Of a stretch of 64,000 bases of DNA, positions 20,892 to 62,228 are shown one piece after another. This stretch comes from Rhodanobacter fulvus Jip2 (lineage in GTDB: Bacteria; Pseudomonadota; Gammaproteobacteria; Xanthomonadales; Rhodanobacteraceae), in contig NZ_AJXU01000031.1 of NCBI RefSeq assembly GCF_000264315.1, forward strand, positions 1-64,000. The letters run 5' to 3'. Positions within the stretch are counted from its first letter, which is position 1. Each line of letters opens with the position of its first letter. Position numbers and translations under genes: made by a program. The notes under the pieces are model-generated. The model did no database searches. It had not been told where the DNA came from and was given only the letters and a program-made list of their open reading frames with translations.

Positions 20892-23621
20892 TCAGACGCT
20901 CAGCGGATTCGGCTTTTCCGGATCCAGGTTGTACTGCTTGATCGCGCGGCTGACGTCCTTGGCGCTGACCTTGCCTTCCTTCGCCAGCGCGGCCAGTGCG
21001 GCATGGGCGATCCAGCGGCGATCGACCTCGAAGAACTCGCGCAGGTGCTCACGCGTGTCGGAGCGGCCGAAACCTTCGGTGCCCAGCACGGTGTAGTGCA
21101 TGCCGTCGGGGATGAACGCACGGATCTGGTCGGCGAATTCGCGCACGTAGTCGGTGGCGGCAATCGCCGGGCCGGCACGCCCATCCAGCAAACCGGTGAC
21201 ATACGGCACGCGCTGCTCGGCTTCCGGATGCAGGCGGTTCCAGCGCTCGGCATCGAAACCGTCACGACGCAGCTCCACGAAGCTGGGGCAGGACCAGATG
21301 TCGGATTTCACCCCGAAGTCCTTCTCCAGCAACTCGGCCGCCGCAATCACCTCACGCAGGATCGTGCCCGAACCCAGCAGCTGCACGCACGGCGCCACCG
21401 CCTTGCCCTTGCCCTTGCTCTTATCCGAATCCCGACTCCCGACTCCCGAATCCCGGAGCAGGTACATCCCCTTGATGACGCCTTCCTCGCAGCCCTTGGG
21501 CATGTCCGGATGGGCGTAGTTCTCGTTCATCACGGTGATGTAGTAGTAGTGGTCTTCCTGCTCCTGCAACATGCTGCGCACGCCGTCCTGCATGATCACC
21601 GCCACCTCGTACGAGAACGTGGGGTCGTACGCCTTCACGTTGGGAATGGCGCCGGCCAGCAGGTGCGAATGGCCGTCCTCGTGCTGCAGGCCTTCGCCGT
21701 TCAACGTGGTGCGGCCGGCGGTGCCGCCGACCAGGAAACCGCGCGAACGCATGTCGCCCGCCGCCCAGCAAAGGTCGCCGATGCGCTGGAAGCCGAACAT
21801 CGAGTAGTAGATGAAGAACGGCAGCATCGGCTGATTGCTGATGCTGTAGCTGGTGGCCGCGGCCATCCACGAGGCCATGCCGCCGGCTTCGCTGATGCCC
21901 TGCTGCAGCACCTGGCCCTTCTGGTCTTCGCGGTAGTACAGCAGTTGGTCGGAATCCTGCGGCCGGTATTTCTGGCCGAACGGCGCGTAGATGCCGATCT
22001 GCCGGAACATGCCTTCCATGCCGAAGGTGCGCGCCTCGTCGGCCACGATCGGTACCACGCGCGGGCCGATGGCCTTGTCGCGCAACAGCAGGTTCATGCC
22101 GCGCACCAGCGCCATGGTGGTGCTGATCTCGCGGTCGCCGGTGCCCTTGGTGATCTGCTCGAACGCGGACAGGTCCGGCGCCTTGAGCTTCACGTCGGTG
22201 GTGCGGCGACGCTGTGGCAGCGCGCCGCCGAGTGCCTTGCGGCGCTCCAGCATGTACTGCACTTCCGGGGAGTCCTTGCCCGGGTGGTAGTACGGCACTT
22301 CGTGCAGCTTGTCGTCGGGCACGGGGATGTTGAAGCGGTCGCGGAACGTGCGCACCGACTCGTCGTCCAGCTTTTTCTGCTGGTGGGTGGGGTTCTGCGA
22401 TTCGCCCGAGCCCAGGCCCATGCCGTAACCCTTGACCGTCTTGGCCAGGATCACCGTCGGCATGCCCTTGGTGGCCGACGCGGCGTGGTACGCCGCATAC
22501 ACCTTGTGCGGGTCGTGGCCGCCACGATTCAGGCGCCAGATGTCGTCGTCGCTGAGGTTGGCCACCATCTCGCGCGTCTCCGGATACTTGCCGAAGAAAT
22601 GCTCACGCGTGTACGCGCCACCGAAGGCCTTGCAGGCCTGGTACTCGCCGTCGACGGTTTCCATCATCAGCTTGCGCAGCACGCCCTTGCTGTCGCGCGC
22701 CAGGAGCGGATCCCAGTAGCTGCCCCAGACCAGCTTGAGGGCATTCCAGCCGGCGCCGCGGAACACGCCTTCCAGCTCCTGGATGATCTTGCCGTTGCCG
22801 CGCACCGGGCCGTCCAGCCGCTGCAGATTGCAGTTGATCACGAAGATCAGGTTGTCTAGGCCCTCGCGGCCGGCCAGCGAGATCGCGCCCAGGGACTCCG
22901 GCTCGTCGCACTCGCCGTCGCCCATGAAGCACCAGATCTTGCGATCGCTCTTGGGCACCAGGCCGCGATTCTCCAGATACTTGAAGAACTGCGCCTGGTA
23001 GATCGCCTGAATGGGGCCCAGGCCCATCGACACCGTGGGCACCTGCCAGTAGTCGGGCATCAGCCACGGGTGCGGGTAGGAGGTCAGCGAACGGCCACGG
23101 CCGATCACGTCGGCGCGGAACAGGTCGAGCTGGTCGGCGTCGAAGCGGCCCTCGAGGAACGAGCGGGCATAGATGCCCGGGCTGGAATGGCCCTGATGGA
23201 AAATCAGGTCGCCCGGATGCTCGGCGCTGGGGGCGCGCCAGAAATGGTTGAAGCCCACGTCGTACAGCGTGGCGCTGGAGGCGAAGCTGGCGATATGGCC
23301 GCCCAGTTCGCCCGGCTTGCGATTGGCCCGTACCACCATCGCCATCGCGTTCCAGCGGATCAGCGAGCGGATGCGCCATTCCATCGCCGCATCGCCGGGG
23401 CTCTTGGCCTCCTGGCTGGGCGGGATCGTGTTGACGTATTCGGTGGTGGGGTTGAACGGCAGGTAGCCACCCGAACGGCGGGTGGTATCGACCATCTTTT
23501 CCAGCAGGAAATGCGCACGCTCGGTGCCATCGTGATGGATCACCGCATCAAGCGAATCGATCCACTCGCTGGTTTCGGTAGGGTCGATGTCCTGGTTGAG
23601 GATATCGTCGAGCTGATCCAT
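20892..23621 (-). CDS. aceE: Pyruvate dehydrogenase E1 component (homodimeric type)
   Basis: A 909-residue thiamine-diphosphate enzyme that decarboxylates pyruvate and acetylates the E2 lipoyl groups. The TPP site GDGECDEPESLGAISLAG...NLIFVINCNLQ is intact; the pyrimidine and C-terminal domains follow (ISEAGGMASWMAAAT, LGTEGFGRSDTREHLR). The ATG at 23621 has GGAGAATCTTC in front. Oddity: at residues 723-733 the sequence RDSGVGSRDSD is encoded by four tandem 7-bp units of an intergenic repeat, followed by DKSKGKGKAVAPC; the region corresponds to a shorter loop before VQLLGSG in E. coli AceE (from memory). Its partners aceF and lpdA are 11 kb away. Confidence 0.96.
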   Translation of the reverse strand: MDQLDDILNQDIDPTETSEWIDSLDAVIHHDGTERAHFLLEKMVDTTRRSGGYLPFNPTTEYVNTIPPSQEAKSPGDAAMEWRIRSLIRWNAMAMVVRANRKPGELGGHIASFASSATLYDVGFNHFWRAPSAEHPGDLIFHQGHSSPGIYARSFLEGRFDADQLDLFRADVIGRGRSLTSYPHPWLMPDYWQVPTVSMGLGPIQAIYQAQFFKYLENRGLVPKSDRKIWCFMGDGECDEPESLGAISLAGREGLDNLIFVINCNLQRLDGPVRGNGKIIQELEGVFRGAGWNALKLVWGSYWDPLLARDSKGVLRKLMMETVDGEYQACKAFGGAYTREHFFGKYPETREMVANLSDDDIWRLNRGGHDPHKVYAAYHAASATKGMPTVILAKTVKGYGMGLGSGESQNPTHQQKKLDDESVRTFRDRFNIPVPDDKLHEVPYYHPGKDSPEVQYMLERRKALGGALPQRRRTTDVKLKAPDLSAFEQITKGTGDREISTTMALVRGMNLLLRDKAIGPRVVPIVADEARTFGMEGMFRQIGIYAPFGQKYRPQDSDQLLYYREDQKGQVLQQGISEAGGMASWMAAATSYSISNQPMLPFFIYYSMFGFQRIGDLCWAAGDMRSRGFLVGGTAGRTTLNGEGLQHEDGHSHLLAGAIPNVKAYDPTFSYEVAVIMQDGVRSMLQEQEDHYYYITVMNENYAHPDMPKGCEEGVIKGMYLLRDSGVGSRDSDKSKGKGKAVAPCVQLLGSGTILREVIAAAELLEKDFGVKSDIWSCPSFVELRRDGFDAERWNRLHPEAEQRVPYVTGLLDGRAGPAIAATDYVREFADQIRAFIPDGMHYTVLGTEGFGRSDTREHLREFFEVDRRWIAHAALAALAKEGKVSAKDVSRAIKQYNLDPEKPNPLSV
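21426..21453. repeat. Four tandem 7-bp units inside aceE
   Basis: CGAATCC, CGACTCC, CGACTCC, CGAATCC on the + strand, i.e. GGATTCG/GGAGTCG units in the coding direction. This is the same heptamer class as the intergenic arrays at 33.77 kb (CGGGATT x4) and 62.1 kb. As 28 bp of a 7-bp unit, gain or loss of one copy would shift the aceE frame. Confidence 0.85.
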
Positions 23622-32795: not shown

Positions 32796-33740
32796 ATGCG
32801 CATGGGTCTGGCTGTCGATGCGTCCTGCGATCTGCCGCAGGCTTTCCTGCAACAACACAACATCGTGGTGATGCCGATCGCGGTGAAGGTGGACGACGAG
32901 ACGTTTCTGGATGAGCGCAACCCGGCCGAGATCCGGCGTTTCCTGGATCGCCAGTTGGGCAGCCGCAGCCATTCGGCGGAAACCGAGCCGTGCTCGGTGC
33001 GCCAGATCGAGAACCTGTTCCTGGAACGGCTGGTACTGGAGCAGGACTGCGTGTTCTGCCTCACCATCACCGCCACCCGCAGCCCGATCTTCGACCACGT
33101 CAACCGCGCCAGCTTCGCCATCCTCAAGAGCTATCGCGAGGTGCGCAAACAGGCCGGCGTGCCCGGGCCGTTCATGATGCGGGTGATCGACACACGCAAC
33201 CTCTTCGCCGCCGAAGGGCCCGCCACCATCGAGGCGGTGCGGATGATCGACGCCGATGAGCCCCCGGCCGCGATCCGCGAGCGGCTGCTGCACGTGGCCA
33301 ACAACACCTACGGCTACATGCTGCCGCGCGACCTGTACTACCTGCGCGCCCGCGCCAAGAAAAAGAATGATCGCAGCGTGGGCCTGGTCAGCGCGATGCT
33401 GGGTTCGGCGCTGGACATCAAGCCCATCCTGCAATGCCATCGCGGCGAAACCGGCCCGGTGGGCAAGGCCCGCGGTTTCGAGCAGGGCGCGCAGATGCTG
33501 TTCGACCACGCCACCCGGCGCGTGCGCGCCGGCCTGCTGGTGCCGGCGATGTGCGTGAGCTACGGCGGCGACCTGGCCGTGCTGGCGCAGCTGCCCGGCT
33601 ATGCCGAGCTGCGCGCGGCGTGCGCGGAAACCGGCGTGCAACTGACCGAAGCGCCGATGAGCATCACCGGCATGGTCAACGTGGGCGAGGGCGCCGTCAC
33701 CCTGGGCTTCGCCGCCGAGGAGCATGAGGTGCGGTTCTGA
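32796..33740 (+). CDS. DegV family fatty-acid-binding-type protein
   Basis: A 314-residue DegV-fold protein. It begins MGLAVDASCDLPQAFLQQHNIVVMPIAVKVDDETFLDE, the DegV N-terminal pattern, and ends in a second domain with GRTAR-like DIKPILQCHRGETGPVGKARGFEQG. DegV/FakB proteins bind fatty acids for a kinase in Gram-positives; no fakA-like kinase is visible here and the proteobacterial role is unclear. ATG 32796 with GGGGA upstream. It is divergent from amn across 130 bp. Confidence 0.85.
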   Translation: MRMGLAVDASCDLPQAFLQQHNIVVMPIAVKVDDETFLDERNPAEIRRFLDRQLGSRSHSAETEPCSVRQIENLFLERLVLEQDCVFCLTITATRSPIFDHVNRASFAILKSYREVRKQAGVPGPFMMRVIDTRNLFAAEGPATIEAVRMIDADEPPAAIRERLLHVANNTYGYMLPRDLYYLRARAKKKNDRSVGLVSAMLGSALDIKPILQCHRGETGPVGKARGFEQGAQMLFDHATRRVRAGLLVPAMCVSYGGDLAVLAQLPGYAELRAACAETGVQLTEAPMSITGMVNVGEGAVTLGFAAEEHEVRF

Positions 33741-33764
33741 GAGACGCACCGATGCTTTTGGAGC

Positions 33765-33895
33765 CGGGATTCGGGATTCGGGATTCGGGATTCGTAAAGG
33801 CATCGCGACTGAAGTCGCTCCCACAAGGGCTGCTGAAGCGCGGGCGCTGGCGCGCGACGCTTTTGCGATTCCCTATTCCCCATTCACGGCTCCAT
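33765..33895. repeat. Composite heptamer/REP intergenic element
   Basis: The left end is (CGGGATT)x4 at 33765-33792, the middle a REP-like unit (CATCGCGACTGAAGTCGCTCCCACA), and the right end degenerate ATTCCCT-ATTCCCC-ATTCACG near 33871-33891, opposite in sense to the left array. The same left/right heptamer layout occurs at 62.09-62.23 kb. It fills the gap between the convergent DegV and SDR genes. Confidence 0.85.
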
Positions 33896-61631: not shown

Positions 61632-62105
61632 ATGCTCCATGTGATCCTGTTTCGCCCCGAGATCCCGCCGAACACCGGCAACGTGATTCGCCTGTGCGCG
61701 AATACCGGTGCCGCGCTGCACCTGATCCGCCCGCTGGGTTTTGAACTCGACGATGCGCGGCTGCGCCGCGCCGGGCTGGATTATCACGAGTACGCCAGCG
61801 TGGCCGTGCACGACGACTTCGCCGCTTGCCTCGACGCCATCGGCTCGCCGCGCGTGTTCGCCTTTTCCACCCGCGGCCAGGTAGCCCACGTCGACGCGCG
61901 CTTCGCCGATGGCGATGCGCTGCTGTTCGGCTGCGAAACCGCCGGCCTGCCTGCCGACGTGTTCGAGTCGATCCCCGCCAACCAGCGCCTGCGCCTGCCC
62001 ATGTGCCCGAACAGCCGCAGCCTCAATCTGTCGAATTCGGTGGCCGTGGCGGTCTACGAGGCCTGGCGGCAGCTTGGGTTCGTTGGGGCGGGGAATCGGG
62101 AATAG
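61632..62105 (+). CDS. trmL: tRNA (cytidine34/uridine34-2'-O)-methyltransferase
   Basis: A 157-residue SPOUT-family enzyme that 2'-O-methylates the wobble base of tRNA-Leu isoacceptors. [23 protein letters not shown] start, [30 protein letters not shown], and the knot motif [33 protein letters not shown] 61632 fits the family; the ATG seven codons upstream is an unlikely alternative. The last residues (GNRE) and the stop codon come from a heptamer repeat that begins at 62091. Confidence 0.94.
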
Positions 62106-62228
62106 AGAATCGGGAATAGGAAAAGCAAAAACCTCGGCACCCGCGGCATCCTTTCCGCCGGCGAAACACCGCTCTTCCAATTCCCCATTCCCCATTCCCC
62201 ATTCCCCATTCCCCATTCCCCATTCCCG
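62091..62228. repeat. Heptamer-bounded intergenic element spanning the trmL stop
   Basis: Left array GGGAATC-GGGAATA-GAGAATC-GGGAATA (62091-62118); right array (ATTCCCC)x6 plus ATTCCCG (62180-62228), opposite in sense. The 60-bp centre contains CCGCGGCATCC and CCGCCGGCG. Same layout as 33.77-33.90 kb. It supplies the end of trmL and fills the gap before ubiJ. Confidence 0.88.

Follow-up and report, generated by a model that had tools for sequence, protein, structure and literature searches.

The window analysed here comprises 64,000 nucleotides of Rhodanobacter fulvus Jip2 (positions 1 to 64,000 of contig NZ_AJXU01000031.1, assembly GCF_000264315.1). On its minus strand lies aceE, the gene of the pyruvate dehydrogenase E1 component, and inside this gene a tandem array of G-rich heptamers is read in frame as part of a loop between two domains of the enzyme. 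The gene and its parts are as follows.

20892–23621, minus strand: aceE, pyruvate dehydrogenase E1 component, 909 amino acids (start at 23621, stop codon included; open reading frame, phmmer, Pfam)
21387–21461, minus strand: variable inter-domain loop, AceE residues 721–745, 25 amino acids (loop comparison, predicted local distance difference test (pLDDT), Pfam domain borders)
21427–21454, minus strand: heptamer array, four in-phase units, AceE residues 723–732 (sequence, Tandem Repeats Finder (TRF), array scan, codon resampling)
21399–21422, minus strand: Lys/Gly-rich tail behind the array, AAGAGCAAGGGCAAGGGCAAGGCG, a hexamer-like run (TRF at 21401–21422, period 6; loop sequence)

AceE has E. 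coli E1 as its best solved relative and matches the structure 1l8a, among others, over residues 10–906 (phmmer). In the alignment of the two, the loop counts 11 amino acids in E. coli and 25 here, in agreement with an earlier reading of the DNA alone (hereafter the sequence-only reading), which had described it as shorter in E. coli. Residues 721–745 stand between the Pfam domains PDH_E1_M (483–705) and Transketolase_C_1 (743–867). An AlphaFold model (30-row alignment, mean pLDDT 75.7) places residues 731–740 below a pLDDT of 50, flanked by strands 720–723 and 745–750, and the loop is predicted to be a disordered linker joining the two domains. In L018, L032, L037 and L043, a further small insertion (e.g. 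SDKSGG or SSNGGVS) follows HPD[LM]P, a few residues ahead of the loop; the entire linker region is therefore length-variable.

Read on the coding strand, the array is C GGGATTC GGGAGTC GGGAGTC GGGATTC GG, encoding R723 to S732, then D733. TRF reports it at 21425–21455, with a period of 7, 4.4 copies and 91% matches. Synonymous resampling of the loop with the gene's own codon usage never gave more than one in-phase GGGANTC unit in 200,000 rounds, against the four observed; four GGG tracts at 7-nt spacing arose in 18 of the 200,000. The codons are foreign to the rest of aceE as well: outside the loop, GGA is used for none of the gene's 86 glycines and AGT for none of its 48 serines. The DNA of the loop is therefore recognisable as repeat DNA read as protein, and the resampling rules out a chance low-complexity protein as the source of the repeat.

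Each of the two units, GGGATTC and GGGAGTC, is one base off GGGAATC (the Xanthomonas-type consensus being GGGNATC / GGGAATC), and this genome has both GGGATTC and GGGAATC arrays. In the frame used, four pure GGGATTC units would give F and I, in whose place the GGGAGTC units give V and S; F is also missing at those loop positions in most relatives. We infer that the GGGAGTC units probably result from selection on the peptide.

Three further arrays lie in the window.

33766–33793, plus strand: intergenic array of 4 x GGGATTC, behind a stop codon (array scan)
62091–62118, plus strand: G-rich arm of a convergent array pair, GGGAATC/GGGAATA type (array scan)
62179–62227, minus strand: C-rich arm of that pair, 7 units of GGGAATG type; 4 units in the relative G002 at the same place (array scan, G002 comparison)

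The sequence-only reading had assigned the aceE repeat to a heptamer family and placed the same heptamers between genes at 33.77 and 62.1 kb. The membership is borne out by the four in-phase units and by the array at 33766–33793, which has the same GGGATTC unit; the 62.1-kb pair is made of related units only, GGGAATC/GGGAATA and GGGAATG.

Genome-wide, the pattern (GGATTCG)x3 with at most 3 mismatches finds 148 + 123 = 271 matches (overlapping matches each counted), versus 0 + 0 for the pattern read backwards. Arrays were described in a sample of 444,523 bp, consisting of the window and 20 stretches picked for holding arrays, with about 88% of the genome outside it. The sample holds 48 arrays of at least three units, 47 of them outside aceE. 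Among these 47, four units is the size of 34; the 203 units include 119 GGGATTC and no GGGAGTC. Seventeen begin 2–11 nt past the stop codon of a same-strand, composition-selected reading frame (25 within 150 nt), and close array pairs are all convergent with the G-rich arm first (12/12). Among the 48, the aceE array is the sole clear case in which the GC content of both flanks indicates coding sequence in a single frame. Flanks were assessed visually from their GC content at the three codon positions, without a gene finder, and a few arrays, including L217:13443 and L210:10402-10510, are ambiguous. The matching 80 kb of G013 and G028 contain one array each, that of aceE; none is found in G006 and G008, which have a short aceE loop.

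The dispersed arrays have some features of their own. A (G)NAARRGC tail stands 0–3 nt from the end of 26 of the 47 arrays, versus 0.85% of random positions (L206–L225 and the window); mirrored before the C-rich partner in several pairs, it resembles part of one defined element. REP-like sequence occurs near 7 of the 47, and at 33738–33825 the intergenic array of the window sits within a REP-like stem (GATGCTTTT ... AAAGGCATCGCGACTGAAGTCGCTCCC), directly past the stop codon. Rfam gave no match in the window at gathering score.

Repeats of this kind are known from Xanthomonas. According to passages of Rehm et al. 2015 (PMC4692102), its G-rich heptamers (GGGNATC / GGGAATC) come most often in four units, and in convergent pairs (70 and 75), near stop codons, and fold as G-quadruplexes (G4) in vitro; they are rare inside genes (11% and 7%, partial overlap counted), and their role was still to be elucidated at the time of description. 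To judge from those passages, the arrays here are alike in being dispersed G-rich 7-bp tandem units with GGG every 7 nt and four units as the commonest size, in their convergent pairs and in their frequent position just past stop codons. Unlike in the parts of that report considered, one loop of one enzyme is occupied repeatedly across genera and families, with a changing unit. The main text of PMC4692102 has no match for aceE or pyruvate, nor for the string AAAAGC, and its passages used here do not contain the tail motif. A search by title and abstract start found no literature linking aceE and a heptamer repeat, and any claim of novelty rests on that search.

A second comparison is with the Rickettsia palindromic elements (RPE; Ogata et al. 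2000, as related in passages of the review PMC2229807), palindromes of 105–146 bp in 19 reading frames. As in that account, an intergenic repeat is here also translated as an in-frame part of a conserved protein, which tolerates it. Unlike the RPE described there, the aceE array measures 28 bp, has no palindromic partner and is the sole clear two-sided coding case in our sample. No C-rich partner occurs within 200 nt behind the array, which is thus single, and because there is no palindrome in the gene we do not class it with RPE.

The loop was compared in all 45 sampled genomes of the genus: it has 13–15 amino acids in 32 and 19–25 in 13 (19 in the second aceE copy of G009). An alignment of relatives had been proposed as a check, an insertion shared by all relatives, invariant and with diverged codons, being taken as ordinary protein sequence. 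The insertion is not invariant; but 8 of the 13 long loops lack an in-phase repeat, while the other five show three or more GGG tracts in phase (G000, the genome of the window, G013, G028, G020 and G011). The nearest relative by AceE, G002 (96% amino acid identity), has a short loop of 14 residues, LLKDGGKGKKGELR, which is the length in most of the genus, and the DNA of G000 and G002 is 95–98% identical across the 180 nt upstream of the loop.

A tree of AceE without the loop (111 rows, quick method) needs at least 18 long/short changes, 13 of them forced by starred branches, versus 35.8 with shuffled labels. Its rows are hand-picked and over-represent long loops: 64 are long (16 amino acids or more) and 47 short. 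The tree omits G057, G058, G086, contig-broken G017, G033 and G037, the second copy of G024, and all but six of 80 named loci. Judged from this tree, the long-loop trait is clustered in the family, yet far from one event. In a DNA tree of the Rhodanobacter core (37 rows, careful method), six long rows represent six changes, all forced by starred branches (5.7 with shuffled labels), and no single-change tree occurs in 200 bootstraps. From Xanthomonas to Rhodanobacter, short alleles hardly vary (KPKKGE[PL]R), which favours gains over repeated deletion. On these sequence comparisons, long AceE loops are recurrently gained, with a patchy distribution in the family.

The unit in AceE was then set against the arrays of its host. 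It is GGGATTC here and in allied genomes, GGGACTC in G184, GGGACCC in G174 and G181, GGGGACC in G047, GGGAGCA in G048 and G057, and GGGACGA in G051. Seven unit types were counted in 63 of 233 family genomes after removal of aceE's own matches, and the match was tested in those 25 whose AceE contains two or more exact units, a set different from the 25 heptamer-bearing loops defined by at least three in-phase GGG. The main unit of AceE ranks first among the seven host types in 14 of the 25 genomes and second in 11, hence first or second in all; shuffled pairings reach a mean of 11.6 and a maximum of 21 in 20,000. The mean host share of AceE's unit is 0.52, versus 0.25 when shuffled, and none of the 20,000 shuffles is as high.

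Abundance of arrays also differs with the loop. In the 63 genomes, the median number of array matches is 60 for long loops with at least three in-phase GGG (25 genomes), 13 for other long loops (22) and 6 for short ones (16), with Mann-Whitney p values of 0.021 and 5e-5. Long loops with little or no repeat are found in G108, G111, G137, G142, G061, G063, G065 and G029, which have zero matches for the seven tested units (other unit types not having been searched there). The extra loop residues seem to outlive the repeat.

A case from another family of the order, G267, has the loop units GGGCTGA GGGCTCA GGGCTGA GGGCTGA. The search for GGGCTSA that this loop prompted gave 195 + 245 = 440 matches in G267, the top of 52 genomes, 42 of which have zero (a few of the matches stem from its own aceE), and so confirmed the prediction made from the loop. 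The backward control of this search is itself a GGGASTC pattern, and hence no null: it finds 245, 188 and 24 matches in G297, G428 and G306, which have GGGACTC loops, and 245, 201 and 102 in G245, G291 and G479, without clear GGGACTC loops. GGGCTGA/GGGCTCA appears as a further dispersed heptamer type, with 36 to 440 matches each in G267, G219, G279, G492, G255, G273, G080 and G077. As far as these counts reach, the repeat has settled in the AceE loop again and again and, for the most part, in the unit type of its host.

Altogether, the aceE insertion is probably a tolerated, recurrently gained in-frame resident of the genome's dispersed G-rich heptamer family, exchanged or renewed by recombination. 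Within the disordered stretch that joins the middle domain of E1 to the C-terminal one, the extra Gly, Ser, Arg, Asp and Lys residues would be tolerated. Long alleles may arrive in part by homologous exchange of short tracts between species, after which slippage, together with recombination involving other arrays of the genome, may renew their units at the site; a mixture of the two routes seems most likely. The reading frame would permit only steps of three units, selection on the peptide would edit hydrophobic codons, and the array itself would need no function.

Several observations weigh against this account. The shuffle of units within genera is weak (p 0.041), and part of the unit match is therefore shared ancestry. 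In 11 of the 25 genomes the unit of AceE is second-ranked, not the commonest; in three (G011, G053, G219) the top unit of AceE is tied and the first one was taken. The tested unit types were picked after the AceE loops had been seen, and the array counts include overlapping matches. The loop of G060, outside the 25, has one GGGACGA unit, with 1 match in its genome. GGGCTSA, tested later, exceeds AceE's unit in G219 and G077; it occurs in nine genomes besides G267 (G219 225, G279 102, G492 79, G255 42, G273 41, G080 37, G077 36, G260 4, G210 2), and none of the six of those loops inspected (G219, G492, G255, G080, G077, G210) has a GGGCTSA unit. In every repeat-bearing loop seen, the coding strand is the one that carries the G-rich side of the array, a uniformity not expected from repeated random insertion. 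Since GGGAGTC is absent from the 203 units sampled outside aceE, the aceE array is not a fresh transfer from the sampled intergenic arrays. The pairs G020/G036 and G029/G035 have no clear dip in identity downstream of the loop, and over 120 nt downstream the nearest neighbours of long alleles are not other long alleles but mostly short ones.

How the long alleles arrived can be judged in part from their flanks. Over the 180 nt that precede the loop, G028 and its short sister G006 are 98–100% identical; identity falls to 82 and 90% in the two 60-nt blocks directly after the loop and returns to 97–100% further on, which looks like the exchange of a short tract. The same comparison between G000 and G002 is less clean (88, 93, 98 and 88%), and two short–short control pairs keep 95–100% in those four blocks. 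Long alleles could have spread solely by such recombination between species, the unit type reflecting the donor; the localised divergence speaks for this, as does the 120-nt tract downstream of G028, whose best match in the set reaches 88.3%. We nonetheless hold it unlikely, for the unit type tracks the recipient genome across genera and families, where a donor mismatch would often be expected, and the nearest downstream matches are mostly short alleles. Tracing through these 120 nt gave no consistent donor. A single ancient insertion, inherited vertically and lost many times, would reduce the unit match to the shared ancestry of genome and gene. In its favour, long loops fill several deep lineages of the family (g4, g5, g7, g12, g18 and g19 among sampled rows) and share RDSG heads, often a PC end, and the one strand mentioned above. 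We hold this improbable too: in the Rhodanobacter core, long rows adjoin short sisters, and constraining five of the six together is 539 log units worse (approximately unbiased (AU) test, p-AU 9e-61), although this group was named only after the tree had been seen, a further point against our own reading. Short alleles as alike across genera as KPKKGE[PL]R are hardly the product of repeated deletion, and genus g2 alone has four unit types in six loops.

Other explanations would give the array a role or a maker. Maintenance as a G4 in the mRNA or DNA of aceE draws on a four-tract motif, which the aceE array described here has: 22 of the 25 heptamer-bearing loops hold it, where synonymous resampling predicts 1.7, and it occurs in 0 of 463 windows in other parts of the same genes. 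It also draws on the folding of a (GGGAATC)3GGG oligonucleotide as a G4 in K+ with a T1/2 of 50.4 C, given in a passage of PMC4692102. However, the motif persists in only 3 of 39 long loops that lack an in-phase repeat, against an expected 0.6, and in most members of the genus the site carries no array; the motif arrives with the repeat and mostly leaves with it, and therefore gives no sign of being kept for itself. Selection for a G4 is not supported by those long loops, and we consider this function very improbable. The sequence-only reading had rightly foreseen that a change of one or two units shifts the frame, as 7 is not a multiple of 3, and had gone on to propose a mutational hot spot, which is not supported and, with one genome per species, neither shown nor excluded. 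The step seen in AceE between species is of three units: within one starred clade the loops of G172 and G177 have 27 amino acids and that of G181 has 34, a difference of 21 bp that keeps the frame, and this is the only clean change of unit number between species that we noticed. Like simple-sequence contingency (phase-variation) loci, aceE has within its reading frame a tandem repeat whose unit length is not a multiple of three, and the count of an intergenic array at one place does differ between G000 (7 units) and G002 (4 units). Unlike such loci, it has shown no on/off variation (one genome per species), the array lies in the middle of the gene of a central enzyme, and the step between species is frame-keeping; nor does aceE contain an internal stop among the matches listed. 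That copy-number slippage acts as a switch silencing E1 in part of the cells is scarcely credible. A further idea, a long shot, is that the heptamer arrays of this order owe their unit to an active, lineage-specific process, which writes or refreshes them and replaces the unit throughout the genome; an unknown enzyme, a template or strongly biased conversion would lie behind it. The change would be somewhat like that of telomere repeats, whose type follows their template, and the aceE linker would be one standing target. If so, the linker would be a built-in reporter of the unit currently written.

As a recurrently gained, tolerated resident, the array would offer a clear natural case of non-coding repeats that repeatedly enter a core enzyme at one place and become protein, their unit type marking where they came from. 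Constrained by the reading frame, the aceE loop would also record the spread and change of heptamer arrays in this order. Finally, a second aceE copy, diverged and almost full-length, is present in two members of the genus, G009 and G024 (loci L130 and L132), with 76% and 59% identity to the aceE of the window.

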